A DNA stretch of 64,000 nucleotides from Halomonas socia (lineage in GTDB: Bacteria > Pseudomonadota > Gammaproteobacteria > Pseudomonadales > Halomonadaceae), in contig NZ_CP048812.1 of NCBI RefSeq assembly GCF_010977575.1, positions 1,922,001 through 1,986,000 on the forward strand, given 5' to 3'. The notes under the pieces are model-generated. The model ran no database searches. It was not told where the DNA came from and saw only the letters and a list, made by a program, of their open reading frames with translations. Positions 23,906 through 40,384 of this stretch are shown piece by piece; within the stretch, counting starts at the first letter, position 1; every line of letters starts with the position of its first letter. The position numbers were made by a program, and so were the translations under genes.

Positions 23906-25217
23906 CGAAGTAGGCATCTGAGCCGATCTGGCCCCCCTTGAGGGCAACCTCGAGACCGTCGAAGGTCGGCTCATCACTATGGGCACGACACAGCGGTGAG
24001 CCGGGTGTCTCCGGCAGGGGCAGGCGGGTCGTCAGGGCGTGGACCTGCAGCTCGCGCAGGGCGTGGCTGGATGTGTCGCCACCGGCAATGGCGACCCGGC
24101 GCAATCCATGTGTCTCGACCAGTCGGCGCAGCAATTGACCCAGCGTACGGCCGATGCGGCGGCGTGCCTGGGGCCCTCCTTGTTCCACCGCCGAGGCATT
24201 CGTCTCGGGCCCCATGGCGGTATGCAGGATCACGCTCGTATCATTTACCAGGGCGTCATTGGCCGCCTCCATCGCGGCCTGGATGATGCCTTCGCTGCTC
24301 TCGTCGCTGATTAGGCCGGCCACGTCCAAGGGGATGGAGCGGAAGCCGTTGGCTTCGGCCCAGCGGATCTGGCGGGCGGTAACCTCCGAGCAACTCCCCG
24401 ACACCACGGCGATTCGATCCACCGCTCCCGGCGGTGTGAAAGGGGGCGCCGTGGCTGGAGCGCGCTGCTGCTGGCGCCAGGCATCCAGCAGTGCGTACTC
24501 GACACCGGACGAGCCCACCACATAGCTACCCCGGGGCTTCCGGGTGCGCCAGAGCTGGTGTCCGACCTCGGTCTGGTGCCGCGAGTCGAGCACATCGTAG
24601 AGCAGTACCTGATAGACGTCTCTCAGTCGGTCGATGCGCTCGTCGACATCCGGTTGCGCGAGACACAGGATGTCCGCGAGTCCGATGGACAGTGCGGTCT
24701 GGTCGGCCAGGTGCCGACGAAGATCGGCCTCACCCATGGGGGTGACCGGATGGCGGCACATCACCGGATGACGGTCGAGGCGATGCACTTCGCCCTGGAA
24801 CACGGCGAAGTGCTGGCCGAAGACGGTATAGCGCTTCAGTTGCGGGGCGCCCACCACCAAGGGCACGCATGCCTGGTCGAACAGCGCCTGGCCGATCTCC
24901 AGGGCGCGGCCGATATTACCGACCTCAGGCGCGCTATCGAAGGTCGAGCAAATCTTGTAGTGGCAGAGTTCGGCCTCGAGTGAGTGCAGCCAGGTGAGAG
25001 CGTGATGCAGATGATCGTCCATCCACTCGGGCGTCTCGCTGCGGCTGTTACCGGCCAGCCCGATCGCGCGGCAATCGGCGAAACTGACAAGCTGCTCGGC
25101 GTTGGGCGGGTCGAGGAACAGTACGGTAGGGATGCCGCCGAGGCTCAAGGCCTCCATGACGTCGGTGGAGCCGGTCAGGTCATCGCCATAGTAGGACAGC
25201 AGCGGGGAGATCGTCAT
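23880..25217 (-). CDS. oiaK: DUF1537 four-carbon acid sugar kinase, probable 3-oxo-isoapionate kinase
   Basis: Kinase of the four-carbon acid sugar family (DUF1537), 445 residues. The N-terminal substrate domain opens with YYGDDLTGSTDVMEAL (the conserved DDLTGS). The C-terminal nucleotide-binding domain includes VVSGSCSEVTARQI and VAIAGGDTSSHALREL. It overlaps the RuBisCO-like gene by one base (TGATG), so the two are coupled. In described D-apionate pathways OiaK phosphorylates 3-oxo-isoapionate before a RuBisCO-like enzyme acts. The assignment here rests on this pairing plus an ApnO-like dehydrogenase in the same operon; related kinases act on threonate, erythronate or denovo sugars, so specificity is inferred. 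Confidence 0.78.
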   Translation of the reverse strand: MTISPLLSYYGDDLTGSTDVMEALSLGGIPTVLFLDPPNAEQLVSFADCRAIGLAGNSRSETPEWMDDHLHHALTWLHSLEAELCHYKICSTFDSAPEVGNIGRALEIGQALFDQACVPLVVGAPQLKRYTVFGQHFAVFQGEVHRLDRHPVMCRHPVTPMGEADLRRHLADQTALSIGLADILCLAQPDVDERIDRLRDVYQVLLYDVLDSRHQTEVGHQLWRTRKPRGSYVVGSSGVEYALLDAWRQQQRAPATAPPFTPPGAVDRIAVVSGSCSEVTARQIRWAEANGFRSIPLDVAGLISDESSEGIIQAAMEAANDALVNDTSVILHTAMGPETNASAVEQGGPQARRRIGRTLGQLLRRLVETHGLRRVAIAGGDTSSHALRELQVHALTTRLPLPETPGSPLCRAHSDEPTFDGLEVALKGGQIGSDAYFVNIRDGQA

Positions 25218-26482
25218 CAGCGAAAAGTCTCCATGGCCTGGGCGAGTTCACGGTGTTCGCGGGCGAAGTCGATCAGGTCTACACCTGACACGGCGGCCTC
25301 CCAGGCCTGGCGCAGGCTGGCAACCCCGCCAGCGATGCCGCCGGGGTGGGCCATGATGCCACCGCCGCAACAGTAGATCAGGTCGGTGTTGCCCAGGGCG
25401 GCATGGGTATCCGCCACCTGGGCGGCGCTCTGCCCCGAGGAGAAGACCGGCATCACCGTGTAGTCCGGTGCCGAGGCTCCGAACAGCGGTGTCTGGCAGG
25501 CCCGGGCACTGGCGATGACGCTGTCATCCTCCTCGCTGAACTTGTTGCGCAGGCCGTTGACGTGTATGTGGTCGACGCCCGCCAGGCGCCACATTTTGTG
25601 GTAGGCGCTGAAGTCCATGCCGATATGTGGCGAGCGGCTGTAGAGCCCCCAGCCGGCCCGGTGGCCGTGCAGGGCGACCTGGCAGTGGCGGCGAAGCTGG
25701 GTGACGCCGGCCAGACCGACGCTGTTGATCGCGACCATGACGCAGGTGCCGCCGGCGGCCACCACGTAGTCGTGGTGCCCGCGCATCTCATCGATGTCGC
25801 CGCTGATGTTGAAGGCATACATCACCTTCTTGCCGGTGCGTTCGGCATGGGCATTGATCAGCGGCATGATGGCGTCGACCCTTGCCTTGAGCGGGCTATG
25901 CGGACCGTTGGCCTGGAGCTCGTCATCCTTGATGAAGTCGATGCCGCCCTCGATCAGTTGCTCGACCATCTCGGCGGTCTGGGCTGGTGTTAGGCCGACG
26001 CTGGGTTTGATAATGGTGCCAATCAGCGGCCCACTCTCGATGCCGCTGAGCCGGCGAGTCCCTGTAGTACCGAACTGTGGGCCCGGATACGCATCGACGA
26101 AGGCTGAGGGAAGTTCGAGGTCGAGCAACTTCAGTGCCGAGAACTCCTTCAGCTCGAAGAGGTTGCCGGCTACCGTAGAGCTCAGGTTGGGCAGCGAGGG
26201 TCCGAGGTTCTCGAGGGGCCAGGAGATTTCGACCAGGGCGCGCCGGTAGCGGTGCGCGGCGATCGGCGCCAGGTCGGCGCGCATGGGTAGCGAGGGCTGG
26301 TCGACTACCTCCAGGCGTTGGATGGACTCGACCCGAGCGCCGTGCGCCTCACGCAAGGTATCGGTCTCGCTGGCCAGGCGGGTGAAGGTGCCCGATGACT
26401 GTTCTCCTGCCATCACTTGGGCGGCATGCTCGAGATCATAGGGGGTTTCGATGAAGTAGCGGGCGTGGATTCTGGCACTCAT
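25217..26482 (-). CDS. RuBisCO-like protein, probable 3-oxo-isoapionate-4-phosphate decarboxylase or transcarboxylase/hydrolase
   Basis: RuBisCO large-chain superfamily protein of 421 residues, not a carbon-fixing RuBisCO. Active-site segments are kept in modified form: GTIIKPSVGLTP (the second active-site Lys of RuBisCO is Ser here), GGIDFIKDDE with the carbamylated Lys and metal acids, HGHRAG, VDHIHVNGL, SSGQS and CCGGGIMAHPGG. The neighbours (DUF1537 kinase, ApnO-like dehydrogenase, TRAP transporter) match described D-apionate gene clusters, where two RLP types exist: OiaX (decarboxylase giving L-erythrulose 1-phosphate) and OiaT (transcarboxylase/hydrolase giving 3-phosphoglycerate and glycolate). 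No erythrulose-phosphate isomerase gene lies nearby, which mildly favours OiaT (inference). Confidence 0.82.
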   Translation of the reverse strand: MSARIHARYFIETPYDLEHAAQVMAGEQSSGTFTRLASETDTLREAHGARVESIQRLEVVDQPSLPMRADLAPIAAHRYRRALVEISWPLENLGPSLPNLSSTVAGNLFELKEFSALKLLDLELPSAFVDAYPGPQFGTTGTRRLSGIESGPLIGTIIKPSVGLTPAQTAEMVEQLIEGGIDFIKDDELQANGPHSPLKARVDAIMPLINAHAERTGKKVMYAFNISGDIDEMRGHHDYVVAAGGTCVMVAINSVGLAGVTQLRRHCQVALHGHRAGWGLYSRSPHIGMDFSAYHKMWRLAGVDHIHVNGLRNKFSEEDDSVIASARACQTPLFGASAPDYTVMPVFSSGQSAAQVADTHAALGNTDLIYCCGGGIMAHPGGIAGGVASLRQAWEAAVSGVDLIDFAREHRELAQAMETFR

Positions 26483-26513
26483 CGTAAGGCTCCGTGGCTA
26501 TGTGAGGCGTGGC

Positions 26514-27788
26514 TCAATAGAGCAGGTCGCGCAGAAACAGGGAGATCGCTGGTACATAGGTGATCAGCATCAAGCAGGTGATGATGGTCAGCACCGGCGG
26601 CAGCAGGTAGCGGAACAGATGCTCCACTGGCAGCTTGGCCACTTGAGCGGCGGCAAAGAGGTTGACGCCAAGCGGCGGGGTGAACATGCCGAGGGCCAGG
26701 TTGACCACGATGATGATGCCGAAATGTACTGGATCGATGCCGAAGCCGATAGCGATGGGCGCCAGGATCGGAGCCAGGATCAGGATGGCAGCTGAGGTCT
26801 CGATGAACATCCCGACCACCAGCAGCAGCATGTTGATCGCCAGCAGGAAGGTATAGCGGTTGTCGAAGGCACTCTGGGACCAGGCGCCGATGTCTGTGGC
26901 CAGCCCCGAGCGGCCGATGACGAAACTCAGGGCAGAGGCCGCGGCAATGATCAGCATAACGGCGCCCGCTGACATGGCGCTCTCGCGAAAGATCCTGGGC
27001 AGATCCTGCAGGGCGATGGTGCGATAGACCACCATGCCCAGGAACAGGCCGTAGGCGACTGCCACGGCGGAGGCCTCGGTTGGCGTGAAGATGCCACCGT
27101 AGATACCGCCGATGATGATCACGGGCATCAACAGGGCGAGAAAGGCACTGCGAAAGGCAGGCCATATTGGACTGCGCAACTCGCCATCTTGGGTGCCGTA
27201 CCCTTTGATGCGGCACCAGATAGCGATCATCACAATCAGTGCGGTGCCGATCAACAGCCCAGGGCCGAAGCCGGCCATGAATAGTTGGGTGATCGAGGTC
27301 TCGGTGCTGACGCCATACAGGATCAATGGCACCGAGGGGGGGATGATGATGCCGAGTTCCGACGAAGAGGCCTGGACCGATGCAGCCATAGGGGGTGGAT
27401 AGCCGCGCTGCACCATGGCGGGAATCAGGATGGCACCGATGGCGAAGGTGGTGGCTACGCTGGAACCCGAGATGGCCGCGAAGAGCATGCAGGTAACCAC
27501 GCAAGTGCAGGCCAGTCCGCCCTGGATGCCCCCGACCAGGGAGCGGGCGAACTCCACCATGCGTGCGGCGATCCCGCCGTTGCTCATGATATTGCCGGCG
27601 AGGATGAAGAAGGGAACGGCCATGAGCGGAAAGCTGTCGAGACCTACGAACATCCGCTGGGGCACAACCTGGAGGGGGACGTTGGTAAAGAAATAAAGGC
27701 CCGTGGCGGCGGCTAGGGCAATCGCCACGGCGATGGGTATCGACAGGGCGAAGAGCCCGACCAGCACGGAGCCGATGGCGAAGTTCAT
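26514..27788 (-). CDS. dctM: TRAP transporter large permease DctM
   Basis: Large membrane subunit of a sodium-driven TRAP transporter, 424 residues, about a dozen hydrophobic segments. Typical features include PFFILAGNIMSNGGIAARMVEFARSLVG-type sequence near residue 60, AISGSSVATTFAIG, and SSELGIIIPPSVPLILYG. The ATG at 27788 overlaps the dctQ stop. It lies 31 bases upstream of the RuBisCO-like gene in one operon. It probably imports D-apionate or a related branched sugar acid (inference from neighbours). Confidence 0.92.
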   Translation of the reverse strand: MNFAIGSVLVGLFALSIPIAVAIALAAATGLYFFTNVPLQVVPQRMFVGLDSFPLMAVPFFILAGNIMSNGGIAARMVEFARSLVGGIQGGLACTCVVTCMLFAAISGSSVATTFAIGAILIPAMVQRGYPPPMAASVQASSSELGIIIPPSVPLILYGVSTETSITQLFMAGFGPGLLIGTALIVMIAIWCRIKGYGTQDGELRSPIWPAFRSAFLALLMPVIIIGGIYGGIFTPTEASAVAVAYGLFLGMVVYRTIALQDLPRIFRESAMSAGAVMLIIAAASALSFVIGRSGLATDIGAWSQSAFDNRYTFLLAINMLLLVVGMFIETSAAILILAPILAPIAIGFGIDPVHFGIIIVVNLALGMFTPPLGVNLFAAAQVAKLPVEHLFRYLLPPVLTIITCLMLITYVPAISLFLRDLLY

Positions 27789-28315
27789 GGGTTTTCTCCT
27801 GCCTGATGTTCACCGAGGGTGGGCGTACGCGAGGCGTGGCGGTGTTCTCGTTCCCGTTCGAACTGGCGTGCGATGACGGCAATGGCGGCGATGGCGCAGC
27901 CCACGGGGATGGCAGCGTAGAACCACGACATGGAGATCTCGAGCATGGCGATCTGCTGGCGGGAGACCCTCACTGTGATGAGATAGCCCTGCCAGACCAG
28001 CAGCCCCAGTAGCGTCAACACCGCAGCGCATACCAGGCGTTGGCCGTGAATGCGCAGATGTGCCGGAAGGCGAGAGATGAATAGGCCGATGGCGATCATG
28101 GCGCCGTGCCAGAAGGCGGCAGCACTGACTAGGAACATGCTCCAGATGATCAGGCCGCGGGCGAGGATTTCCGACCAGGACGCTGGGTTGCCGAGAATGA
28201 AGCGCGTGAACACCTGGTAGAAGACCAAGGCCACGGCAATGGCCAGCAGGAGGGCCGCGAGATTATGAGTGAGCCTGACCAATCCCTGTGCCAGGGCAGT
28301 GAACAGAGAGAACAT
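27785..28315 (-). CDS. dctQ: TRAP transporter small permease DctQ
   Basis: Small membrane subunit with four hydrophobic segments, 176 residues; the segment FTRFILGNPASWSEILARGLIIW is the conserved DctQ motif region. ATG 28315 was preferred over an in-frame ATG at 28333 because GAGGAG sits eight bases ahead of it, whereas the upstream one has none. The C-terminus overlaps dctM by four bases. Confidence 0.88.
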   Translation of the reverse strand: MFSLFTALAQGLVRLTHNLAALLLAIAVALVFYQVFTRFILGNPASWSEILARGLIIWSMFLVSAAAFWHGAMIAIGLFISRLPAHLRIHGQRLVCAAVLTLLGLLVWQGYLITVRVSRQQIAMLEISMSWFYAAIPVGCAIAAIAVIARQFEREREHRHASRTPTLGEHQAGENP

Positions 28316-28341
28316 TAGGGCGCTCCTCGTCATCCGGGAAA

Positions 28342-28365
28342 CGGCGCCTCCCCGGGGAGGCGCCG
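28342..28365. other. Perfect 24-nt palindromic hairpin between dctP and dctQ
   Basis: The core GGCGCCTCCCC is followed directly by its exact reverse complement, with one more pair at each end. There is no T-run on either strand, so it is unlikely to be a full terminator. Located just 3' of dctP, it may stabilise the dctP message or attenuate read-through so that the binding protein is made in excess over the membrane subunits (inference). Confidence 0.6.
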
Positions 28366-28375
28366 CGATCAGGCG

Positions 28376-29368
28376 TCACTGGGTGTTGCGGATACGCTCC
28401 AGCAAGTCACCGTTGAACTCACCGGCGAAACGGTCATAAACGGGTTGCACGGCGCTGCGGAATTGCTCGTAGTCGATCTCGTCGACCACCTGCATGCCGT
28501 TCTCGCGCAGCAACTCGACGCCCTCGGCCTCGATGCGTGCGACCGACTCGCGAGAGGCCTGGGCCGCCACCTGGGCTGCCTGGCGGAACCAACCCTGCTG
28601 CTCCTCGGTGAGACCATCCCAGTAGATCTGCGACATCACCACCGCGGTTGGCGAATAGACGTGGCCGGTCAGGGTCAGGTGGTCCTGGATTTCCCAGATG
28701 CTGTTGACGGTCAGAATGGGGGTTGGATTCTCCTGTCCATCGATGGTGCCCTGCTGTAGCGCGGTGATCACTTCGGTCCATGACAGCGGGGCTGGCGCTG
28801 CGCCCAGCTCGCGGAAGGTCTCCAGGTGTACCCGATTCTCCATAGTGCGGATCTTCATGCCCTTCATGTCCTCGGGCGTTTCCACCGGACGCAGGCTGTT
28901 GGTCAGATGGCGAAAACCGTTCTCGGCCCAGGCCAGGCCAATCAGCCCCTCGCTCTCGAACTCTGCCAGCAGTTCCTGACCAATCTCGCCATCGAGTACG
29001 GCATGGGCATGCTCGTAGTCACGGAACAGGAAGGGGAAGTCGAGGGCATAGATTTCAGGAATAAAATTACCGATAGGCCCTGTCGAGGTCAGCGTCAGCT
29101 CCACCGAGCCGATCTGCAGTCCTTCCAGGACGTCCCGCTCGCCTCCCATGGCGCTGGCAGGTTGCAGGGTGATCTTGAACTCCCCATCGCTGAGGCGCTC
29201 GATCTCCTCAGCGAAGGCGCGGCCGGCGTCGCCATAATGCGAGCTCAGCGGTGGGGTGAAGGCCAAGTTCATCTCCTGAATGGCAAAGGCAGCTCCGCCA
29301 AACAGCAGCGGCAGTGAGAAGGCCAAGGCGATGGCAGCGGTGGTCTTGTTGGTGGCGTTAGTGTTCAT
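28376..29368 (-). CDS. dctP: TRAP transporter substrate-binding protein DctP
   Basis: Periplasmic receptor of 330 residues with a signal peptide ending near FGGAAFA. The mature part shows family features: LAFTPPLSSHYGDAG, IGSVELTLTSTGPIGNF, and MKIRTMENRVHLETFRELGAAPAPL with the Arg that clamps a substrate carboxylate, then GTIDGQENPTPILT. The ribosome site AGGAG precedes ATG 29368. A carboxylate ligand fits a sugar acid such as apionate. It is the second gene of the operon, 50 bases after apnO. Confidence 0.92.
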   Translation of the reverse strand: MNTNATNKTTAAIALAFSLPLLFGGAAFAIQEMNLAFTPPLSSHYGDAGRAFAEEIERLSDGEFKITLQPASAMGGERDVLEGLQIGSVELTLTSTGPIGNFIPEIYALDFPFLFRDYEHAHAVLDGEIGQELLAEFESEGLIGLAWAENGFRHLTNSLRPVETPEDMKGMKIRTMENRVHLETFRELGAAPAPLSWTEVITALQQGTIDGQENPTPILTVNSIWEIQDHLTLTGHVYSPTAVVMSQIYWDGLTEEQQGWFRQAAQVAAQASRESVARIEAEGVELLRENGMQVVDEIDYEQFRSAVQPVYDRFAGEFNGDLLERIRNTQ

Positions 29369-29418
29369 GGTGGCTCCTGATCATTGTCGTTATGTTGGGT
29401 GGGGGCCGAGGAAGGCCC

Positions 29419-30246
29419 TCAGGTGATGCGGCGTATGCTTTCGGTGATCTCCTTGGGCTCGAAGACACGCTTCCAGTCATCTCGCATCAGCTGTGGTTTG
29501 GCGTTCTCTATGGCCTTGTTACAGGCATCTGAGAAAACGCCAGGCTGCTCTTCGAAGGTCACTGCGGCGAGAATATTCAAGTGGCCAAGCAGGAAGTCTC
29601 TGGCGCACTCCCTGTCCACTCCCCGCGCCACGACCTCATCCATCGCTTCGCGCATTACCGCCAGCAGGGTGGCGCAGACGGTTTCCGACAGGCCCGGCTC
29701 GAGCAGTGCCATCTGCTCTACTGAGACGCGGTGCGAGCGCACCACCGGGGCATAGATGATTTTGGCGACGTCCTCGCCCAGTGCATACAGCTCCTCGGGA
29801 CCCTGCATCAGGGCACTGACGATATGCTGTTTGGCCAGGTGACCGCCGAAGAAGTCACGTTTGGCCTCTGGGTCTGTCTCGTCATTGAAGATCGGTGGGT
29901 GGCAGGGGTGGGTCACGAAGTAGACCAAGTCATCACGCTTCGGCAGATGGCCGGCGAAGGGGGCGGCGGCATCCAGGGTGACTACCATGGTGCCGCTGGC
30001 CATGAGTGGCGAGAGTTCTTCGGCGATACGACCGACCAGGTTATCGGGTACCGCTAGGATCACAATCTGGGCGCCAGGTACGGCCTGCTCCACGTCCACG
30101 CAGTGAACGCCGAGTCCCTGATCGAGTCGTTTTCGTCCGGCATCGCTGACCTCCACATGATGGACGTCGTAGTCGGATCGCTGCAGGTTGCTGGACAAGC
30201 GATAGCCCATCTTGCCGCCCGCACCGATCAGCGCAATTTTGACCAT
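29419..30246 (-). CDS. apnO: Probable D-apionate oxidoisomerase (phosphogluconate dehydrogenase C-terminal-domain family)
   Basis: NAD(P)-binding dehydrogenase of 275 residues. The Rossmann start MVKIALIGAGGKMGYRL carries the dinucleotide motif, and the catalytic C-terminal helical domain includes THPCHPPIFND, YAPVVRSHRVSVEQMALLEPGLSETV and EQPGVFSDACNKAIENAKP. The Rossmann plus PGDH-like C-terminal architecture and the operon partners (DUF1537 kinase, RuBisCO-like protein, TRAP transporter) match the described D-apionate oxidoisomerase, which oxidises and rearranges D-apionate to 3-oxo-isoapionate. ATG 30246 follows AGGAGT. First gene of the operon, divergent from the GntR-type regulator. 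Specificity is inferred from context. Confidence 0.75.
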   Translation of the reverse strand: MVKIALIGAGGKMGYRLSSNLQRSDYDVHHVEVSDAGRKRLDQGLGVHCVDVEQAVPGAQIVILAVPDNLVGRIAEELSPLMASGTMVVTLDAAAPFAGHLPKRDDLVYFVTHPCHPPIFNDETDPEAKRDFFGGHLAKQHIVSALMQGPEELYALGEDVAKIIYAPVVRSHRVSVEQMALLEPGLSETVCATLLAVMREAMDEVVARGVDRECARDFLLGHLNILAAVTFEEQPGVFSDACNKAIENAKPQLMRDDWKRVFEPKEITESIRRIT

Positions 30247-30330
30247 GTGAGACTCCTGATTTAGAGGTTTCACCGCAACCAAGGCGGTGGTGTCGACGGG
30301 CTGCTAAGGCGTGGGAAGAATTTGCCCGAC

Positions 30331-30363
30331 AACTGGTATGATGACATAATATCAATTCCAGTT
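30331..30363. promoter_or_regulatory. Inverted repeat in divergent promoter region, candidate operator
   Basis: AACTGG (30331-30336) and CCAGTT (30358-30363) form a perfect inverted repeat with an AT-rich centre; an inner TGAT/ATCA pair shares nearly the same axis. It sits in the 241-bp space between apnO and the GntR-type gene, where promoters of both must lie. It is a reasonable binding site for the adjacent regulator. Confidence 0.5.
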
Positions 30364-30487
30364 AGTCAAACGCTGCTTTAGTCGTATTTGAGGGTCAGTG
30401 CCCGCAGCGGATAGACTGCTAACGCGTTTGCGCCGCTGGATATACGTCTGGATTGACCATCGTCCAGAGGCTTGTGAGGAGAAAAAC

Positions 30488-31204
30488 ATGGACCCGACAC
30501 CCAAGATCACTCGGCGCAAGCTGTCCGACGAGGTCTTCGATAGGCTCTACGAGATGATTGAGTCAGGGCGATGCCGTCCTGGAGATACTCTGCCCTCGGA
30601 GCGGGAGTTGATGGATAGCTACGGGGTGGGGCGGCCGGCAATACGCGAGGCGATGCAATCGCTTGAGAGGATAGGCTTGGTAGAGATCAACCATGGCCAA
30701 CGTCCGAGAGTGCTGCAGCCTACGGCCATGGGGCTGATTGCCCAGATCGACCTGACTGCCCGCCATATGTTGGCCAGTTCTCCGCAGTCGCTGGAGCAGT
30801 TAAAGGAAGCAAGGACATTCTTCGAGCTGGGCATGGTCGAGAAGGCGGCGCGTCAGGCTACGCCTGAGGATGTGGTGAGGTTGCGAGAGCTAGTATCGGC
30901 GCAGCGGCGCTACCTGAACGAGGATGCTGCAGCTTTCGTGAAAGCCGACATGGCCTTTCATACGGCGATTACCGCGATGACGCTCAATCCCATTTTCACG
31001 GCCACCAGCCAAGCGATGCTAGGTTGGTTAGCGCGCTTTCATTCTAGTCTCTTGCACTGGGAAGGAAATGAGTCGATTACGATCATGGAGCATGAGCGTA
31101 TTGTCGATCGTATCGAGGCTGGTGAGCCTGAGCAGGCGGTCTACGAGATGCAGAAGCACCTCGAACGGGCGCGGGCACTTTATGCATTGGACAAACCGAC
31201 ATAG
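30488..31204 (+). CDS. GntR/FadR-family transcriptional regulator (NanR-like)
   Basis: DNA-binding regulator of 238 residues. The N-terminal winged helix (about residues 8-78) has LPSERELMDSYGVGRPAIREAMQ, and the C-terminal FCD helical ligand domain carries the acidic/His metal-binding residues (ADMAFHTAIT, with EHERIVDRI downstream). The RPAIREA and NHGQRPRV wording is close to the NanR subgroup. A GAGGAGAAA ribosome site precedes ATG 30488. It is divergent from the apionate-type operon and probably its pathway-specific repressor (inference). Confidence 0.85.
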   Translation: MDPTPKITRRKLSDEVFDRLYEMIESGRCRPGDTLPSERELMDSYGVGRPAIREAMQSLERIGLVEINHGQRPRVLQPTAMGLIAQIDLTARHMLASSPQSLEQLKEARTFFELGMVEKAARQATPEDVVRLRELVSAQRRYLNEDAAAFVKADMAFHTAITAMTLNPIFTATSQAMLGWLARFHSSLLHWEGNESITIMEHERIVDRIEAGEPEQAVYEMQKHLERARALYALDKPT

Positions 31205-31490: not shown

Positions 31491-33125
31491 ATGAGGCAGA
31501 TAACAGTGAAAAATATTGCAGCGACGCGTTTTAAGAGAACGCTTCTAGCGAGTGCCATGGGCCTAGCCGCGGCGTCACTCAGCGCTCAGACGCTGGCCCA
31601 GGAGCGGGTGGCTTCGATCGACCTGATGACCACCACCGAATCCTACGACCCGATCCGCTACGAGGCGGCCTTCATCATCGCCGAGCGCTGGGAAGAGCTG
31701 GGTTTCGACGTCAATGTCCAGCCCACCGAGTTCAGCACCGCCCTGGAGCGGTTCTACGATCAGCAGGACTTCGACGTCACCATCCTCGGTTGGACCGGCC
31801 GCACCGACCGCCTCGACCCGCAGTTCTTCCTCAGCACCCTCGACTCGCGCCAGGCTAACCCCGGCGGCAACAATCCGGGTGGCTATGACAACCCCGAGTT
31901 CGATGCGCTGTTCGACCAGCAGTCCCAGGCCTTCGACCCGGATGAGCGCCAGCAACTGGTGATGGAAATGCAGGAGCTCTACAAGCCGGATGCGCCGCTG
32001 GTGGTGCTGTTCCACCGCGACGAGGTGGTGGCCTACAACCACGAGGCCTTCGACGGTTTCGAGCCGATGGCCGGCGAGGGCCTGTACAGCGAGTGGGGGC
32101 CGATGGAAGCCCAGCCGGTAGGGGACCGTCGCACCCTGCGTATCGGCGGCCCCCAGGAGCCCGACAACCTCAACCCGCTGGCGTCCACCTCGGTGTGGGG
32201 CTGGAAGTGGATGCGCCTCTACTATGATCGCCTGGTGCGCCTCTCCGCCGACGTCGAGCCGCTGCCCTGGGCCGCCGAAGAGGTCGAGCAGGTCGACGAC
32301 ACCACTGTGGCGGTGACCCTGCGCGAGGGGATGACCTTCCACGATGGCGAGTCGGTCACCGCCGACGACGTGGCCTTCACCTTCAATTACTATCTCGACC
32401 AGGACTACAGCTACTTCAACTCCTATCTCGATACGCTGGAGTCTGCCGAGGTCATCGACGGTAGCACCGTACATTTCCACCTCAGCGAACCGTCGGCATC
32501 GTTCGCCAGCATCACGTTGTCGCAGATCCCTATCCTGCCCGAGCATATCTGGTCCGAGATCGACGATGCCTCGACACTGAGTCCCGATGAGGTGCCCACC
32601 GTGGGTTCCGGGCCCTTCCAGTTCGAGCGTTTCGACCGCGGCGAATTCATGGCCATCAGCAAGTTTGACGACCATTTCCATGCTGACGAGATCGCCGTGG
32701 ACGGCGTCGAGTTCATCATCTATGCCGACATGGAAGGCGTCTACACTGGCCTGCAGACCGGCGAGATTGATCTCACCGCCTGGCGCATGGAGCCTGGCCA
32801 GATCAGCCTGGCCGAGAGCGAGGACCACCTCACCGTGGTCAACGTACCCGACTTCGGTTACTACCACATGACCTACAACCTGCGCCGCGCCCCCCTCGAC
32901 GATCGCGCCGTGCGTCGTGCGCTGACCATGGCCAGCGACCGCGAGCGGATGGTCGATGTGCTGCTCGACGGCCGCGGCGAGGTGGGCTCCAGCGTGATCG
33001 CGCCGGTCAACACCTTCTGGCATGAGGCCTTCATCGAGCGCTTCGACTTCGATATGGACGCCGCCCGTGCCGAGCTGGAAGAGGCCGGCTACGCCTGGGA
33101 CGAGGACGGTCGCCTGGTGCGCTGA
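31491..33125 (+). CDS. Circularly permuted family-5 (peptide/nickel type) ABC transporter substrate-binding protein
   Basis: Exported protein of 544 residues, signal peptide ending near ASLSAQTLAQ. The domain order is reversed relative to DppA/OppA. Residues about 40-205 are the normally C-terminal lobe: IIAERWEELGFDVNVQP, FDVTILGWTGRTDRLDPQFF, GGYDNPEFDALFDQQ and APLVVLFHRDEVVAYN. Then residues about 215-544 read as the canonical N-terminus and middle: TLRIGGPQEPDNLNPLAS, LREGMTFHDGESVTADDV, IPILPEHIW and VPTVGSGPFQFERF, ending AELEEAGYAWDEDGRLVR just where the missing lobe would follow. ATG 31491 lacks a ribosome site; GTG 31506 has GAGG nine bases ahead and may be the true start. First gene of the operon with two permeases and a fused ATPase. 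Confidence 0.9.
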   Translation: MRQITVKNIAATRFKRTLLASAMGLAAASLSAQTLAQERVASIDLMTTTESYDPIRYEAAFIIAERWEELGFDVNVQPTEFSTALERFYDQQDFDVTILGWTGRTDRLDPQFFLSTLDSRQANPGGNNPGGYDNPEFDALFDQQSQAFDPDERQQLVMEMQELYKPDAPLVVLFHRDEVVAYNHEAFDGFEPMAGEGLYSEWGPMEAQPVGDRRTLRIGGPQEPDNLNPLASTSVWGWKWMRLYYDRLVRLSADVEPLPWAAEEVEQVDDTTVAVTLREGMTFHDGESVTADDVAFTFNYYLDQDYSYFNSYLDTLESAEVIDGSTVHFHLSEPSASFASITLSQIPILPEHIWSEIDDASTLSPDEVPTVGSGPFQFERFDRGEFMAISKFDDHFHADEIAVDGVEFIIYADMEGVYTGLQTGEIDLTAWRMEPGQISLAESEDHLTVVNVPDFGYYHMTYNLRRAPLDDRAVRRALTMASDRERMVDVLLDGRGEVGSSVIAPVNTFWHEAFIERFDFDMDAARAELEEAGYAWDEDGRLVR

Positions 33126-33222: not shown

Positions 33223-34203
33223 ATGTCGTCACGCAGAAGCTACCTGATACGCCGTGTGCTGCACGGCTTCATGGCGCTGTTCATCATCGCCACCCTGCTG
33301 TTCTTCCTGTTTCGTCTGGGGCTACCCGACCCCACCGCAGCGCTGATCACCGAGGGCCTGAACCCCGAGGAGCGCGAGCGGATCCGCGCCAGCTTCGGCC
33401 TCGACCGGCCGATCTGGGAGCAGTATTTCATCTATCTGGCGAATATCGTCCAGGGCGATTTCGGCTACTCCTTCCACTACCGCGCGCCGGTAGCGGATAT
33501 CATCTGGGAGCGGCTCGGCAACACCATGATCCTGATGCTGCCGGCCATCGTGCTGGCCTATGCGGTGGGTGCACCGCTGGGCGCCTGGCTATCGTGGCGG
33601 CGTGGCAGTCGTGCTGATACCAGCGGTATCTTCGTCGGCCTGATGTTCCGCTCGGCGCCGATGTTCTGGACCGGCATGATCGCCATCCTGGTGTTCGGCA
33701 TCGCCCTCGGCTGGCTGCCCACCAGCGGCATGCGCACGTTGCCCTACGAAGCGTCGGGCTTTTTCGACAAGATATTCACCTTGGACTTCCTGCACCACCT
33801 GATCCTGCCGGCGTTGGTGGTGGCGCTCTACTATCTGGGCTCGCCGCTGCTGATCATGCGCAACACCATGCTCGAGGTGTACGGCGAGGACTTCATCGAG
33901 ATGGCCCGCGCCAAGGGCCTGCCGGAGCGTCGCATCCTTTATGCTCACGCCGCGCGCAACGCGCTGCTGCCGGTGGTCACCCAACTGGCGGTGACCGTGG
34001 GTCTGGCCGCTGGTGGCCAGGTGGTGGTGGAGGTGGTGTTCTCGTGGCCGGGGCTGGGGCGTGAAATCCTCAACTCGGTGCGTACCTCCGACTTCCCCCT
34101 TGCCCAGGCCAGCTTCCTGGTGATGGCGGCCTTCGTCATCACCCTCAACCTGCTGGTCGATATCCTTTACACCATGCTGGACCCGAGGGTGAGCTTCAAA
34201 TGA
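33223..34203 (+). CDS. Peptide-type ABC transporter permease, DppB-like
   Basis: Inner-membrane permease of 326 residues, six predicted hydrophobic segments, normal family length. N-terminus YLIRRVLHGFMALFIIATLLFF, the FGLDRPIWEQYFIYLANIVQGDFGYSFHYR periplasmic stretch, and the cytoplasmic EAA-type loop DFIEMARAKGLPERRILYAHAARNALLPV that contacts the ATPase. It overlaps the next permease by ATGA. Unlike its partner it has no extra domain. It lies 97 bases after the binding-protein gene. Confidence 0.92.
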   Translation: MSSRRSYLIRRVLHGFMALFIIATLLFFLFRLGLPDPTAALITEGLNPEERERIRASFGLDRPIWEQYFIYLANIVQGDFGYSFHYRAPVADIIWERLGNTMILMLPAIVLAYAVGAPLGAWLSWRRGSRADTSGIFVGLMFRSAPMFWTGMIAILVFGIALGWLPTSGMRTLPYEASGFFDKIFTLDFLHHLILPALVVALYYLGSPLLIMRNTMLEVYGEDFIEMARAKGLPERRILYAHAARNALLPVVTQLAVTVGLAAGGQVVVEVVFSWPGLGREILNSVRTSDFPLAQASFLVMAAFVITLNLLVDILYTMLDPRVSFK

Positions 34204-35936
34204 ACCGATCACGACTGATGAAAAGCGCCCAGGAGCCGCTGCGGGCGATCCTCGGTGACCGGCTGGCGCTGGTGGGTCTGGCGGTGCTGTTGTCGATCAT
34301 CTCCATGGCACTGTTCGCGCCGGTGCTCTCCACTCATGCACCGTTGGCGGTCAACGAGCGTGAAGAGGGCTCGCTGTTCACGCGCAGCGTCGACGGCAAC
34401 CAGGTGCGCTGGCGAGCCTCGCCGCCGCTCGGCGAAGCAACGCTTAACGCCGCCGACTATCGCGATGGCCTGGGCATGGCGGTGGGCCGCGACGGTGTGG
34501 TGTGGCGCTATGCGGGCGGTGACTGGTCGCGCCTCGATACGCCGCTCACTGCGACCCTGAATGCGGTCAATATCCGCGAAGATGGGGCGACTTTGGTGGC
34601 CGGCGCCGAGGGTACGGTGGCGCTGTGGACGCCGGACGATGCCTGGCAGACCTTCGACATGCCCGAGCCGCTGGGCGTCAACGGCATTGCCTGGCGCGAC
34701 GCAGGTACCGCGCTGCTGGTCGGCGGCGGCGAAACCATCTGGCGGCTAGATCTGGAGAGTGGTGAGGTCGAGTCGCTGCAGAGTCCGGTGGGACGCGGCT
34801 TCGACCTCAACGGTGTGGCGTTGGATGTCGACGGCAGCGCCTGGCTGGTAGGTGACCGCGGTCTGGCACTGCGCCTCGAGCCCGACGACGACACCCCGAG
34901 TCTGGAGCGGCTGCCCGGCAACCGTGAGCTGAATCACATCCATATCGCCGACAGCGGCGCCGGCCTGATTGTTGGTGAACGAGGCACCCTGCTGGTCCGC
35001 GACGCCGCCGAGGGCAGTTGGCAGAGCCAGGACGCCCCTGACTCTCGCGCGATGCGCTCAGGTTGGATCACCGACGACGGTCATGCCTTCGCGGTGGGGC
35101 GCAGCGGCATTGTCTTCGAGCGCGAGCCCGGCGGCGACTGGCAACTGATGCCCAGCGACGAGGAGCGTCACCTGCGTACGCTAATGGTCACCGATGACAA
35201 CTACTTTGCGCTGGGCTCGGATCGCTTCGTCAATCGCCTGGCCCCGCCCTCCGGAGAGCACTGGTTCGGTACCGACCACCTCGGTCGCGACCTCTATAGC
35301 CAGAATGTTCACGGCTCGCAGATCGCGCTGCTGGTAGGCTTTCTGGGTGCCGCCCTGGTGGTGCTGATCGGCGCCAACGTCGGGCTCGTGGCCGGCTATT
35401 TCCGCGGGCGCACCGAAACTGTGCTGATGCGTACCGTTGATGTGATGTATGGCATCCCCTTCGAGCCCTTCGCACTGATTCTGGTGCTGCTGTTCGAGCC
35501 CAGCCTGTTCATTGTGATCCTCGCCGTGTCGCTGCTCACCTGGCGCACCGTGGCGCGGTTGATCCGCTCTCAGGTGCTGAGCCTGCGCGAGCGGCCCTTC
35601 GTCAAGGCAGCGCGGGTCGCCGGCGCCTCCGACCTGCGCATCATGTACCTGCATATCTTCCCCAACGTGATGCCGCTAGTGTTTCTCGAGTTGGCCATCA
35701 TCGTCGGGGTGTCGATTATCGCCGAGGCGACGCTGTCGTTCCTCGGGCTGGGGCCGCCGCAGTCGATCTCCTGGGGCGGCATCCTGCACAACGCGCGGCT
35801 CTCCGGGGCCTGGCGCGAGGCTTGGTGGTGGAACCTGCCCCCTGGGCTGCTGATCATGATCACGGTGCTCTCCGTGTTCTTCATCTCCCGCTCGCTCGAG
35901 CTGGTGGCCAACCCGCGACTGAGGGCACGTCGATGA
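34200..35936 (+). CDS. DppC-like ABC permease with a seven-bladed beta-propeller inserted in the first periplasmic loop
   Basis: The protein has 578 residues, almost twice the roughly 300 of normal DppC proteins. TM1 lies near residues 22-44 and the canonical HWFGTDHLGRDLYS resumes at residue 354, followed by the rest of the permease with EAA loop FVKAARVAGASDLRIMYLHIFPN. Between them, residues about 55-350 hold seven repeats of the form xxVGxxGxVxR...W..L at about 92, 131, 170, 213, 254, 295 and 335 (for example MAVGRDGVVWRYAGGDW, LIVGERGTLLVRDAAEG, FAVGRSGIVFEREPGGDW). This resembles YCF48/BNR propeller blades. The topology places the propeller in the periplasm. It has ATGA overlaps on both sides, and base composition matches the neighbours. 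Function of the insert unknown. Confidence 0.9.
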   Translation: MNRSRLMKSAQEPLRAILGDRLALVGLAVLLSIISMALFAPVLSTHAPLAVNEREEGSLFTRSVDGNQVRWRASPPLGEATLNAADYRDGLGMAVGRDGVVWRYAGGDWSRLDTPLTATLNAVNIREDGATLVAGAEGTVALWTPDDAWQTFDMPEPLGVNGIAWRDAGTALLVGGGETIWRLDLESGEVESLQSPVGRGFDLNGVALDVDGSAWLVGDRGLALRLEPDDDTPSLERLPGNRELNHIHIADSGAGLIVGERGTLLVRDAAEGSWQSQDAPDSRAMRSGWITDDGHAFAVGRSGIVFEREPGGDWQLMPSDEERHLRTLMVTDDNYFALGSDRFVNRLAPPSGEHWFGTDHLGRDLYSQNVHGSQIALLVGFLGAALVVLIGANVGLVAGYFRGRTETVLMRTVDVMYGIPFEPFALILVLLFEPSLFIVILAVSLLTWRTVARLIRSQVLSLRERPFVKAARVAGASDLRIMYLHIFPNVMPLVFLELAIIVGVSIIAEATLSFLGLGPPQSISWGGILHNARLSGAWREAWWWNLPPGLLIMITVLSVFFISRSLELVANPRLRARR

Positions 35937-38251
35937 CCGCATCTCCATTATTGACCGTCGATGACCTGGCTATTCACTACCGCACCGGGGCGGGCCCCGT
36001 TCAGGCCGTGGACGGGGTGAGCTTCACCCTCGCTCCTGGCGAGGCGCTGGGCCTGGTGGGCGAGTCGGGCTGCGGCAAGACCACTGCCGCCAAGGCCATG
36101 CTGCGGCTGCTGCCGCCCAACGGCGAGGTGCCGCGAGGGCATATCGACTTCGCAGGACGCGACCTGCTGGGCCTCGATCCGGAGGCCATGCGTCGGGTGC
36201 GCTGGGACGAGATCGCCTGGATCTCCCAGGCGGCGATGAATGCCCTCGACCCGGTCTACACCGTCGGCGAGCAGATTCTCGAGGCGATGCGGGCGCACCG
36301 CAAGATCGAGCGCAAGGCGGCCTGGGCCCACGCCGAGCAGCTGTTCCGCGACGTCGGCATCGACCCCGGGCGACTCTCTGCCTATCCCCACGAGATGAGC
36401 GGCGGCATGAAGCAGCGTGCGGTAATCGCCATGGCGTTGGCGCTGGACCCGCAGCTGATCGTCGCCGACGAGCCGACTACCGCGCTCGATGTGGTGACCC
36501 AGGCACAGATCCTGTCGCGGCTGACCAAGCTGCGCCGCGAGCGTGGTCTGGCGCTGATGTTCATTACCCACGACATCTCGGTGGTGGTGCAGACCTGCGA
36601 CCGGGTGGCGGTAATGTACGGCGGTCACATCATGGAAACCGGGCCGGTACGCGAGGTTTTCGCCAGCCCCTTCCACCCCTACACCATGGGCCTGACCAAC
36701 GCCTTCCCGACGCTCGAGGGCGCGCAGCGCGAGCTGATCTCGATTCCCGGCAGCCCGCCGAACCTGCTCGATCCGCCTCCCGGCTGTCGCTTCGCCGAAC
36801 GCTGCCCCTTCGCTACCCAGCGTTGCACGTCGGAGATGCCGGCGCTGGTCGCTGTCGGCGAGGGGCGCCAGGCGGCCTGTCACTATCCCGAACAGGCCGT
36901 CGATTTTCGCCAGCGGGCGGCCAAGAACCAAACCTGGCAGATCGCTGGCGAGCGCCTCGGCGAGCAGGTCCAGGGGGCGGGCAGCCTGGAGCGGCGCATG
37001 AGCGAGACGACGATTCTCGAGGTCGAGGGCCTCAAGAAGTACTTCCCGGTGGAGCAGGGCTTCCTCGATGGCCTGCGTGGCAAGCGCAAGGAGCGTAAGG
37101 TCCACGCCGTCGACGACATCGATTTCGAGCTGCGCGAGGGCGAAATCCTGGGGCTGGCCGGCGAGTCGGGCTCGGGCAAGACCACCACCGGCGAGATGCT
37201 GGTGCGGCTGCAGGACGTCACTGCCGGCGAGATCCGCTTCGACGGCGTTAATATCGCCGCGCTCAAGGGGCCAGCGCTCAAGGCGTTTCGACGCAGCGCG
37301 CAGATGATCTTCCAAGACCCCTACCAGACCCTCAATCCACGCTTCACCATCCACGATATCGTCGCCGAGCCGCTGATCATCCACCGCCTGGCCGAGGGCG
37401 ATGCGCTGGAGCAGCGGGTGGTCGAGTCGCTGGAGCGCGCCGGACTCAAGCCGGCCAGTGCCTATCAGGATCGCTTCCCCCATGAGCTCTCCGGTGGGCA
37501 GCGGCAGCGGGTGGCCATCGCCCGCGGGATCATCCTCGAGCCGCGCTTCATGGTCGCCGACGAGCCGGTGTCGATGCTCGATGTGTCGATCCGCGCCGGG
37601 GTGCTCAACCTGATGCGGCGCTTCCGCAATGAGCTGGGCATCTCCTTCGTCTACGTCAGTCACGATCTGCCGACCATTCGCTATGTCGCTGACCGCACCG
37701 CGATCATGTACCTCGGCGAGATCGTCGAGGTGGGGCCCACCGATACCCTGATCCGCGAGCGAAAGCACCCCTACACCCAACTGCTGCTGGATGCCAGCCC
37801 CGAGCCCAATCCGGAGGTGGTCAAGCCACCGTTGGAGAGCGCTGGCGAGATCCCCAGTGCGGTGGAGCCGCCCAACGGCTGCCACTTCCACACCCGCTGT
37901 CCCAAGGCCATGGCCCACTGCGGCTGGGAGGGGCGTGACGTTGCCACGGCGCTCAGCGAATGGCGCATTCGCGGCGGAGAACCACAGCAGTTGGCCGGGG
38001 CCAGCGTGATGGGGTTGAAGGCGCAGCTGGCGCTGGTTGATGGCGCCGATGAGGCGGCGGCCCGCGAGGAGCTGCAAGCGATCCTCTCGGCCAAGCATCC
38101 GTCGCTGTGGCAGGCGGCGCGGGTCGAGGCGCGGGAAGGTAGCCTGAGCGTGCAGTTCAGCGCCCAGGCTTCGCCCAAGCGGCGTCTGATCGCCCGCGAG
38201 CACCAGGTGGCCTGCTATCTTTACGAGGAGGTGGCAGATAGTGGGGCATGA
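35933..38251 (+). CDS. Fused DppD-DppF-type ABC transporter ATPase with expanded C-terminus
   Basis: Single polypeptide of 772 residues with two ABC domains. First half: Walker A GESGCGKTT, signature MSGGMKQRAVIAMAL, Walker B LIVADEPTTALDV, and the oligopeptide C-terminal motif CRFAERCPFATQRC. Second half begins near residue 356 (an internal ATG at 36998) and has GESGSGKTT, signature LSGGQRQRVAIARG, Walker B FMVADEPVSMLDV and CHFHTRCPKAMAHCGW. About 90 residues (665-755) are inserted between that Cys cluster and the terminal HQVACYLYEE, which normally is much closer. A real fusion is the simplest reading. Loss of an intervening stop through an indel cannot be excluded, given other indels in the window. 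Confidence 0.88.
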   Translation: MTASPLLTVDDLAIHYRTGAGPVQAVDGVSFTLAPGEALGLVGESGCGKTTAAKAMLRLLPPNGEVPRGHIDFAGRDLLGLDPEAMRRVRWDEIAWISQAAMNALDPVYTVGEQILEAMRAHRKIERKAAWAHAEQLFRDVGIDPGRLSAYPHEMSGGMKQRAVIAMALALDPQLIVADEPTTALDVVTQAQILSRLTKLRRERGLALMFITHDISVVVQTCDRVAVMYGGHIMETGPVREVFASPFHPYTMGLTNAFPTLEGAQRELISIPGSPPNLLDPPPGCRFAERCPFATQRCTSEMPALVAVGEGRQAACHYPEQAVDFRQRAAKNQTWQIAGERLGEQVQGAGSLERRMSETTILEVEGLKKYFPVEQGFLDGLRGKRKERKVHAVDDIDFELREGEILGLAGESGSGKTTTGEMLVRLQDVTAGEIRFDGVNIAALKGPALKAFRRSAQMIFQDPYQTLNPRFTIHDIVAEPLIIHRLAEGDALEQRVVESLERAGLKPASAYQDRFPHELSGGQRQRVAIARGIILEPRFMVADEPVSMLDVSIRAGVLNLMRRFRNELGISFVYVSHDLPTIRYVADRTAIMYLGEIVEVGPTDTLIRERKHPYTQLLLDASPEPNPEVVKPPLESAGEIPSAVEPPNGCHFHTRCPKAMAHCGWEGRDVATALSEWRIRGGEPQQLAGASVMGLKAQLALVDGADEAAAREELQAILSAKHPSLWQAARVEAREGSLSVQFSAQASPKRRLIAREHQVACYLYEEVADSGA

Positions 38252-38611: not shown

Positions 38612-39415
38612 TTAGCCAGGGCGCTGGCAGTTGGGTTGGCGTCCGGCGCTGCGCGCCTGCTCGTAGCGCGACAGGGCGTCGTCCATGTTGGACTCGAGCC
38701 CGGCCATGCGCTGGCCCTGGCTGGGGTGGGTCGACATCCACACGGGTGGCTGGCCGCCGCTGGCCGCCTGCATGTTCTCCCACAGTGTCATGCTGGCGCG
38801 CGGGTCGAAGCCGGCCTCGGCCATCAGTTGCAGGCCGATCACATCCGCTTCGCTCTCGTGGCGACGCGAGAAGGGCAGTAGGATGCCGTACTGCGCGCCA
38901 GCGCCGAGCAGGCCGAGCATCTGCTCGCCCTGGGGACCCTGCAGGCCGGCCACCGAGGACAGCACCGACATACCGGCCTGGGTCGCCGACTGGGTCGAGA
39001 CCCGCTCGTTGGCATGACTGGCCATCACGTGGCCCATCTCGTGGCCGACCACCGCGGCGACCTGGTCCTGGTCGGTGGCGATGTCGAGCAGCCCGGTGTG
39101 GATGCCCATGTAGCCGCCGGGCAGGGCGAAGGCGTTGGCCGAGTCATCCTCGAACACGCGGATCTGCCAGTTGTAGTCGCGGTCACTCCCCGACAGCTCG
39201 GCCACCAGCGCGTCGGCGATACACTCGGCGTAGCGCGCGTGGGCACCGCCGACCACCGTCAGATCCTCCTGATACTGTTCGAAGGCCTGCTGCCCCATCT
39301 GGTTGAGCTGCTCATCCGAGTAGAGGGTGAATTGCTGCCGCCCGGTGGGCGAGCTGGCGCAGGCGGCGAGCGATACGCACAGCGCGCCAATGGCGAGTCG
39401 GGGGATCCAGCGCAT
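38612..39415 (-). CDS. M48-family metalloprotease lipoprotein
   Basis: Zinc protease of 267 residues anchored as a lipoprotein: signal sequence ALCVSLAACASS contains the lipobox LAAC. The catalytic motif is VVGHEMGHVMASHANER, with the third ligand expected in SRRHESEADVIGLQLM. It resembles the YcaL/LoiP-type outer-membrane quality-control proteases. ATG 39415 has GAGG upstream and starts the signal sequence; an in-frame start at 39475 would place 20 extra residues before it. It is divergent from the DUF815 ATPase gene. Confidence 0.92.
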   Translation of the reverse strand: MRWIPRLAIGALCVSLAACASSPTGRQQFTLYSDEQLNQMGQQAFEQYQEDLTVVGGAHARYAECIADALVAELSGSDRDYNWQIRVFEDDSANAFALPGGYMGIHTGLLDIATDQDQVAAVVGHEMGHVMASHANERVSTQSATQAGMSVLSSVAGLQGPQGEQMLGLLGAGAQYGILLPFSRRHESEADVIGLQLMAEAGFDPRASMTLWENMQAASGGQPPVWMSTHPSQGQRMAGLESNMDDALSRYEQARSAGRQPNCQRPG

Positions 39416-39520
39416 GATCAAACGTCCTCGTAGTCCATCCGTAGGCAGTGGACGAAAGCCACTGATCTGCCACAAGATACCCGGATACCCACCAAGGTCA
39501 ACCAGAGGGAGACTCCATCA

Positions 39521-40384
39521 ATGGATGCCGAGCTGTCCGCGCGACTCGCCAAGCTGCTCGATCGCGTCGAGGCCTTCTTGCCGCCCCCGCCGCCGCGCAT
39601 CGACTGGACGCGTGACGTGGCGGCGCTGTGGCAACGCCACCCACTGGGTGGACAACTCCTGCCGGTGCCGGTTCGCGATGCGGCAACCCTCGACGACCTG
39701 CTCGGAGTGGAGCGGCAGAAGCGCGCGCTGCTCGCCAACAGCCGCGCCTTTCTGCAGGGCCTGCCGGCCAACCACGCGCTGTTGTGGGGTTCGCGCGGCA
39801 GTGGCAAGTCGTCGATGGTGCGTGCACTGCTCAATACCCTGGCCGGCGAGGGGCTGCGCTTGATCCAGGTCGATCGTCACGACCTGGTCGGGCTGCCGGG
39901 GCTGGTTCAGCAACTGCGCGACCAGCCGCAGCGCTTCGTGGTCTACTGCGACGATCTCTCGTTCGAGGCCAACGACGACGCCTACAAGGCGCTCAAGAGC
40001 GTGCTCGATGGCACCCTGACCGGGCCGCCGGACAACGTGCTGCTCTACGCCACCTCCAACCGCCGCCACCTGCTGCCGGAGTCGCTGGCCGATAACCAGG
40101 ACACCCAACTGGTCGGCGATGAGCTGCATCATGGCGATGCCGTCGAGGAGAAGATCTCGCTATCGGATCGCTTCGGCCTGTGGCTGGCGTTTCACCCCTT
40201 CAACCAGGCCACCTATCTCGAGGTGTGCGAACACTGGGTGTCGCGGCTGGGCAGTGCTGACGACTGGCACGCCGAGGCCCGCGAGGCGGCGATCCGCTTC
40301 GCTACCCTGCGCGGCGGTCGCAGCGGCCGCGCCGCCTGGCAGTTCGCCTGCCAGTGGATCGGCGAGCAGCGCCTGGACGCGTAG
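39521..40384 (+). CDS. DUF815-family AAA-type ATPase
   Basis: Predicted P-loop ATPase of 287 residues. Walker A GSRGSGKSSM near residue 90, Walker B VVYCDDLSFE near 145, sensor-like LLYATSNRRHLLPE, and the conserved EEKISLSDRFGLWLAFHPF region typical of DUF815. Cytoplasmic; the biological role is not established. GAGGGAG precedes ATG 39521. Its 3' end faces the convergent lipoprotein gene eight bases away. Confidence 0.85.
   Translation: MDAELSARLAKLLDRVEAFLPPPPPRIDWTRDVAALWQRHPLGGQLLPVPVRDAATLDDLLGVERQKRALLANSRAFLQGLPANHALLWGSRGSGKSSMVRALLNTLAGEGLRLIQVDRHDLVGLPGLVQQLRDQPQRFVVYCDDLSFEANDDAYKALKSVLDGTLTGPPDNVLLYATSNRRHLLPESLADNQDTQLVGDELHHGDAVEEKISLSDRFGLWLAFHPFNQATYLEVCEHWVSRLGSADDWHAEAREAAIRFATLRGGRSGRAAWQFACQWIGEQRLDA

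Follow-up and report, generated by a model that had tools for sequence, protein, structure and literature searches.

A predicted seven-bladed β-propeller within the DppC-type permease of a Halomonas socia importer that has a circularly permuted solute-binding protein

We describe, within a 64,000-nucleotide stretch of the Halomonas socia genome (contig NZ_CP048812.1, positions 1,922,001 to 1,986,000; hereafter the window, whose own numbering is used throughout), an ATP-binding cassette (ABC) importer of the Opp/Dpp family in which the DppC-type permease almost certainly contains a complete seven-bladed β-propeller in the periplasmic loop between its first two transmembrane helices (TM1 and TM2). 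The solute-binding protein (SBP) of the same operon is circularly permuted. There is strong support for a propeller conserved in a clade that spans Proteobacteria and Thermoproteota, with a permuted SBP wherever the upstream gene is visible. We propose, at a probability of roughly 0.5, that the system represents a propeller-DppC importer of a permuted-SBP clade common to both groups, the propeller docking the permuted SBP.

The permease gene (34200..35936, + strand) is an open reading frame of 578 residues whose AlphaFold2 model has a mean predicted local distance difference test (pLDDT) score of 86. Both of its borders are four-base ATGA overlaps: the dppB stop codon ends at 34203, inside a dppC frame that starts with the ATG at 34200, and the ATPase gene starts at the ATG at 35933 (a start set by the overlap) before the dppC stop codon ends at 35936. 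Pfam recognizes OppC_N at residues 15–49 and BPD_transp_1 at residues 394–575, with weak propeller matches in between. Both Opp/Dpp permease domains pass their cut-offs (28.8 bits for 23.9 and 77.4 bits for 26.4, respectively), and the whole permease falls below the NCBIfam equivalog cut-offs for Opp4C (237 versus 350 bits) and DppC (145 versus 483 bits). TM1, placed by hydropathy and the OppC_N match, covers residues 22–40 (34263..34319, +). The insert with its linkers covers residues 46–352 (34335..35255, +), as delimited by paralogue alignments and 17 genomes of the same family, and the permease core follows at residues 353–578 (35256..35933, +) with the EHWFGTDHLGRD motif and the BPD_transp_1 domain; the AlphaFold2 model and its solved-structure matches give this core a DppC-like fold. 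Insert-less paralogues of related genomes begin to align at residue 328 or beyond. The distance from the initiator methionine to the GTD..GRD motif is 44–127 residues in 70 of 71 measured relatives (from the 74 loci L085–L158) and 240 residues in the outlier, L099; it is 355 residues in L083, a carrier from the same genus. A preliminary description, made from the DNA letters, had read the gene as a DppC-like protein of 578 residues in which about 295 residues, in place of the usual 25 or so, follow TM1 in the first periplasmic loop; the reading frame, the Pfam matches, and the model confirm a surplus of about 300 residues there.

The propeller itself spans residues 57–340 (34368..35219, +), an assignment that rests on 28 model strands, on Foldseek and VIA comparisons, and on profile matches. 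In the AlphaFold2 model, computed from a 19-row alignment, these strands follow the pattern two, six times four, and two, giving six complete blades and a seventh that is closed by the N-terminal strands; ten-residue means of pLDDT lie between 80 and 95 across residues 61–340. The best solved-structure matches of the model in Foldseek and VIA are E. coli DppBCDF and seven-bladed propellers, and the highest Z scores belong to virginiamycin B lyases, tied with many others. When each repeat was scored by a leave-one-out profile, blades 1–6 each exceeded all 300 shuffles. The seventh repeat was not significant by this test, with 80 of 300 shuffles scoring as high, a weakness expected of the last C-terminal unit if that unit is half a blade. 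Prediction for the permease alone thus yields the confident propeller that had been anticipated; the seven repeats counted earlier stand as seven blades in the model, whereas by sequence there are six clear repeats and one composite blade.

The place of this domain among propeller families is less sharply defined. A profile search with the insert matched the structures of Ycf48 and PkwA, a WD40 domain outscoring Ycf48, and a search of solved structures with the insert sequence only gave no strong propeller (best E 0.034, a WD40 protein). Each of the 17 family inserts has a match to the Ycf48 family within E 0.1 (9e-11 for the best); the window insert reaches 20.7–23.9 bits and so misses the gathering score of 27 for PF14870, the insert of an alphaproteobacterial carrier (L080) has no Ycf48 match at E up to 1, and no Pfam family matches the insert of an archaeal carrier (L084) at that threshold. 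Because it falls below the Pfam cut-off, scores better with WD40, and has a relative in L080 with no match at all, the insert is, as judged from sequence, Ycf48/BNR-like and not a Ycf48. The original label of a complete YCF48/BNR-like propeller therefore holds for completeness and for a weak relation that counts Ycf48 among the relatives, but not for membership of the Ycf48 family. Three Halomonadaceae proteins of about 600 residues (L067, L068, and L069) also contain many VGxxG propeller repeats, and they share 34–35% identity with the insert over about 240 residues; their RRRFFRQ N-terminus is presumably of the twin-arginine translocation type.

The 21 residues that precede TM1 include five Lys/Arg and two Asp/Glu, and this excess of positive charge places the N-terminus inside. 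Together with DppC homology and the fold match, the positive-inside N-terminus strongly supports a periplasmic insert; the charge and the homology rule out a cytoplasmic one. A sequence artefact or an accident of frame is likewise ruled out, since in 17 genomes of the family the insert is an open frame conserved at 57–100% identity. Third-position GC is 0.79 in the insert and 0.86 in the permease part, and mean dN/dS is 0.093 and 0.007, respectively (28 pairs from eight family sequences; approximate, with dS near 1). The insert is thus conserved and under purifying selection, and the earlier claims of a periplasmic location and of a stable domain with the composition of its host gene, bordered by overlapping genes, were well founded. 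One alternative is that the insert is a tolerated passenger of mainly structural value, for assembly or stability. The propeller does change far faster than the permease core, family members being as little as 57% identical in the insert and almost unchanged in the core, and sister systems manage without it. This is nonetheless a very improbable explanation, given the dN/dS of 0.093, the selective conservation of one face described below, and the lack of any insert-less row inside the carrier clade, which spans two domains of life, in trees of 118 and 91 rows.

Upstream of the permease genes lies a family-5 SBP of 544 residues (31491..33125, +). Its residues 216–535 match residues 24–345 of AppA (1xoc), and its residues 49–191 match AppA 366–503; the segments occur in swapped order, the C-terminal one first, and the protein is therefore circularly permuted, which agrees with the rearranged binding protein first noted in this operon. 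The SBP_bac_5 profile match totals 252 bits in two stretches. There is no cysteine in the first 40 residues and hence no lipobox cysteine. We fetched 25 carriers of the insert. The contig of one (L081) begins inside dppB, leaving its upstream gene out of view, and a permuted SBP lies upstream in all 24 others: 17 of the family, L080, L167, L221, and four archaea. Among the matches listed for 275 family genomes, the 17 insert carriers are the same 17 that have a full-length match to the permuted SBP, and the next match covers query residues 180–499; this comparison scored at most five candidates per genome, so that weakly similar permuted proteins could escape it.

The reverse relation does not hold. 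Matches to at least 80% of the permuted-SBP query occur in 57 plasmid records, and at nine such loci that we examined (L222–L230) eight have a DppC of ordinary length, with at most 110 codons from the upstream stop to the permease core. These 110 codons leave no room for a propeller in the eight loci; the ninth (L229) was unmeasurable. Weaker matches to the permuted SBP that cover about residues 14–515 also occur in the archaeal order. Permutation of the SBP is therefore more widespread than the propeller, and a strict pairing of the two is broken by the plasmid systems, with which the weaker archaeal matches agree. The co-occurrence that the preliminary description had proposed to survey is thus one-sided: every visible carrier has a permuted SBP, but permuted SBPs also accompany an ordinary DppC. 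The plasmids themselves are haloarchaeal and alphaproteobacterial, and their permuted-SBP genes often adjoin peptidase or hydantoinase genes.

The insert is rare. Within the family it occurs in 17 of 275 genomes (at least five of the window genus, seven of a second genus, and five of a third), all other matches having E values of 4.8e-14 or weaker. In a class sample of 369 genomes, the best match apart from that of the window itself had an E value of 2.1e-10, and no genome except that of the window passed 1e-15 in a phylum sample of 254. Alphaproteobacterial carriers are represented by four records: metagenome-assembled genomes of Pararhodobacter (L080) and Rhodobacteraceae (L081), the Nitratireductor plasmid pOM-1 (L167), and L221. 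In the order of L080 the insert was found in two of 292 genomes, L080's own included. The Desulfurococcaceae archaeon AG1 (L084) encodes a relative of 585 residues whose insert is about as long, and inserts of this type are present in four of 117 genomes of its order, again counting its own. The contig scan that gave L080, L081, and L084 used two short patterns, and its carriers are to be read as at-least counts.

In a tree of 118 rows built on the insert-free core, 14 sampled carriers (six of the 17 family carriers, four alphaproteobacterial, and four archaeal) fall on one side of a branch with a Shimodaira–Hasegawa-like approximate likelihood ratio test (SH-aLRT) value of 99, beside DppCs of Thermoproteota. 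A second tree of 91 rows, which left out 32 named permease rows and one duplicate of the first set, added six propeller-less DppCs from the permuted-SBP plasmids (L228, L229, and L230 gave no row). There the six and the carriers are joined with SH-aLRT 99, as neighbouring groups with values of 92 and 96, respectively. Both trees were made by a quick method with the root position undefined. Their topology suits a single gain of the propeller inside the permuted-SBP class, with transfer between domains of life, as far as sequences can suggest.

It is also conceivable that the bacterial and archaeal inserts were gained separately, as unrelated domains in the same loop, an idea that is compatible with the other explanations discussed here. 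Comparison of the bacterial and archaeal insert profiles gives a probability of only 69%, in the C-terminal half, the L084 insert has no Pfam match at E up to 1, and other Thermoproteota DppCs hold different inserts in this position. We nevertheless regard separate gains as decidedly unlikely: the sampled carriers group in a single clade when the insert columns are left out, the inserts are similar in length and end in the same closing motif, PPS..H.(F/L)GT, and the archaeal model contains three complete blades with the same closure of N and C termini (residues 217–351 with 55–84, pLDDT about 62–80), although its residues 83–205 lack confident structure. Structural matches to the archaeal model are Dpp/Opp chains and then, weakly, propellers. 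The other inserts, of roughly 200 residues, were seen in the TM1–TM2 loop at 11 of 29 fetched Thermoproteota DppC loci (L168, L169, L177, L179–L183, L189, L190, and L193); by eye they have no propeller repeats.

One face of the bacterial propeller (34731..35168, +) is strongly conserved. Its DA and BC loops contain charged residues that are invariant in eight bacterial inserts: E178, R199, R220, R242, E260, R261, D281, R283, R301, E322, and R323, all of which except E178 sit at blades 4–7 or in the loop leading into blade 4. Invariant residues account for 25 of 72 positions in the DA and BC loops and for six of 62 in the AB and CD loops, with strand limits taken from the model, and the difference in mean conservation between the two sets was reached by two of 10,000 label shuffles. 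In bacteria, such a face fits a protein partner. It might instead bind substrate or an anion near the central channel, so that the permease would have in its propeller a second receptor, a filter, or a sensor. Invariant Arg, Glu, and Asp on the DA/BC face would suit ligand binding, and the virginiamycin B lyases at the top of the tied Z scores act on a ligand on a seven-bladed propeller. The fold is a common one, however, on which a structural match is silent as to function, and the face residues are not conserved in archaeal carriers, which do have the permuted SBP; ligand binding is accordingly a poor candidate in our judgement.

We suggest that the propeller acts as a permanent periplasmic docking platform in the DppC subunit of a type I importer of the Opp/Dpp family. 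Its charged DA/BC face would hold one lobe of the permuted SBP beside or above the translocator, while the scoop of DppB, in the equivalent loop, would open the SBP binding cleft. Docking on this face would raise the local concentration of SBP and could help to seal the release cavity. According to the E. coli work (PMC12136057), the DppB scoop comes after TM1 and sits in the DppA cleft, and DppB differs from DppC in TM1 as well as in the TM1–TM2 and TM3–TM4 periplasmic regions; from the position of that scoop after TM1, the DppC loop that houses the propeller would correspond to the one by which DppB acts on the SBP. Argued from analogy, the chance that the propeller is a docking platform for the permuted SBP falls slightly short of even. 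Several points weigh against it. Since the plasmid systems have an ordinary DppC, docking of a permuted SBP needs no propeller; as far as their alignment can tell, the four archaeal sequences do not conserve the charged-face residues; the propeller evolves much faster than the permease core, and faster than might be expected if it were a core interface; and the propeller fold itself does not reveal a partner. A broader version of the proposal, possible but improbable as it stands, would see a cross-domain class of permuted-SBP Dpp importers in which the propeller is a second extracytoplasmic receptor that captures SBP or substrate by its charged face, a captive rather than diffusing receptor, with probable transfer between Thermoproteota and Proteobacteria.

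The remaining components of the operon are those of a complete type I ABC importer, and the set of SBP, DppB, DppC, and fused double ATPase is shared by the window and the other bacterial carriers. The DppB-type permease (33223..34203, +; 326 residues; Pfam BPD_transp_1 and BPD_transp_1_N) is 95.7–98.5% identical to those of the 16 other family carriers and 45–49% identical to those of four archaeal carriers. The ATPase gene (35933..38251, +) is of a fused DppD–DppF type, with ABC_tran and oligo_HPY each matched in two stretches; about 100 C-terminal residues extend beyond the part matched to DppF-type models, which ends near residue 665 of 773. Beside the archaeal operons (L084, L218, L219, and L220), which contain SBP, DppB, and DppC, the fetched DNA has no match to an ATPase of the window type, and the archaeal importers may use shared ATPases or ones whose genes lie at other sites.

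Neighbouring genes bear on a further explanation, that the propeller recruits another periplasmic or outer-membrane partner, such as a peptidase, a porin, or an envelope protein, and places the importer where substrate arises or enters, the DppB scoop serving the SBP. Seven-bladed propellers are often platforms for protein binding, the weak matches of the archaeal model include BamB, and the conserved charged face would suit a protein partner of this kind as well. Two genes that we take to encode an M48-peptidase-like protein (−) and a P-loop protein (+) follow the operon of the window (38612–40384) and are found downstream in ten of the 16 other family carriers. They are missing beside the operon in the other six, in L080, in L167, and in the archaeal loci searched, and are probably signs of a shared chromosomal site and not partners. 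Among the permuted-SBP relatives on plasmids, five of seven annotated loci adjoin peptidase or amidohydrolase genes and the like (M20, M28, or M81 peptidase, hydantoinase/oxoprolinase, creatininase, D-aminoacylase, or dipeptide epimerase), and the other two adjoin amidohydrolase and sugar or flavin genes; this suggests peptides or amides as the substrate for much of the wider permuted-SBP class. Apart from the transporter genes, we found none that accompanies all carriers, and an outer-membrane partner is hard to square with the same domain in archaea, which have no Gram-negative outer membrane. Recruitment of such a partner is thus unlikely, if not strongly so.

Upstream of the importer, divergent from a GntR regulator, are genes resembling those of acid-sugar (apionate-like) catabolism (23880–31204), presumably for a DUF1537-like kinase, a RuBisCO-like protein, a TRAP transporter, and an oxidoreductase. 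Of these, the kinase and the RuBisCO-like gene are the only ones seen again close to the operon, in a single carrier (L201) among the 16 others of the family; L080, L167, and the archaeal loci that were searched gave none of the acid-sugar-like genes. Uptake of apionate or a sugar acid, as the neighbours might have implied, is unsupported.

A propeller DppC with a permuted SBP brings together two topological changes, a domain insertion and a circular permutation, within a single transporter. The periplasmic loops of type I importers are usually short and make contact with a mobile SBP, and few permeases have a large folded insert such as MalF-P2. Present in bacteria and archaea, and with the SBP permuted in every carrier where it was visible, the propeller DppC offers a natural system for testing how an SBP is held and released, and a plain annotation such as "ABC transporter permease subunit" (that of L167) can conceal a receptor-like domain. 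The open-access literature matches listed contain no description of a propeller in the permease of an ABC importer or of naturally permuted family-5 SBPs, a result that is not proof of absence and that accords with the first impression of a transporter design without known precedent.

Comparison with characterized and related systems sets these features in context. E. coli DppC, as seen in DppABCDF (8z1w and 8z1y), has no propeller, and the window permease misses the DppC equivalog cut-off; relative to solved family-5 proteins, the window SBP has its segments in swapped order. Ycf48/HCF136 is likewise seven-bladed with an Arg-rich binding face, and is weakly related by profile, but it is an assembly factor of photosystem II and does not reside within a permease. 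In Ycf48, six Arg residues bind D1, with salt bridges to carboxylates (PMC10403576, also the source for the binding face). This Arg patch may be a functional parallel to the charged face, homology between them not being established; a direct mapping of one onto the other was dropped, as the repeats align in several registers. Among closer relatives, Thermoproteota DppCs with open frames of 442–512 residues adjoin the carrier clade in the tree and have a large insert in the same loop; they differ in the size of that insert and in lacking visible propeller repeats. The Dpp importers on plasmids of Halalkalicoccus, Natrononativus, Ketogulonicigenium, Roseomonas, Maritalea, Haladaptatus, Halorussus, and Microvirga have an SBP permuted like that of the window and, for the six of nine loci placed in the tree, a DppC that joins the propeller clade; they differ in their ordinary DppC and, in the seven annotated loci, in having separate ATPase genes. 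A functional likeness may lie in the maltose importer. MalF-P2 belongs to a different permease and is not a propeller, and both its fold and the TM loop that it occupies differ from those of the window insert. It is a large folded periplasmic insert (residues 91–271), one segment of which contacts MalE (PMC3150292). The two share the character of a large folded periplasmic domain inserted into a permease, a likeness that is functional and hypothetical: the propeller would act like MalF-P2 without kinship to it.

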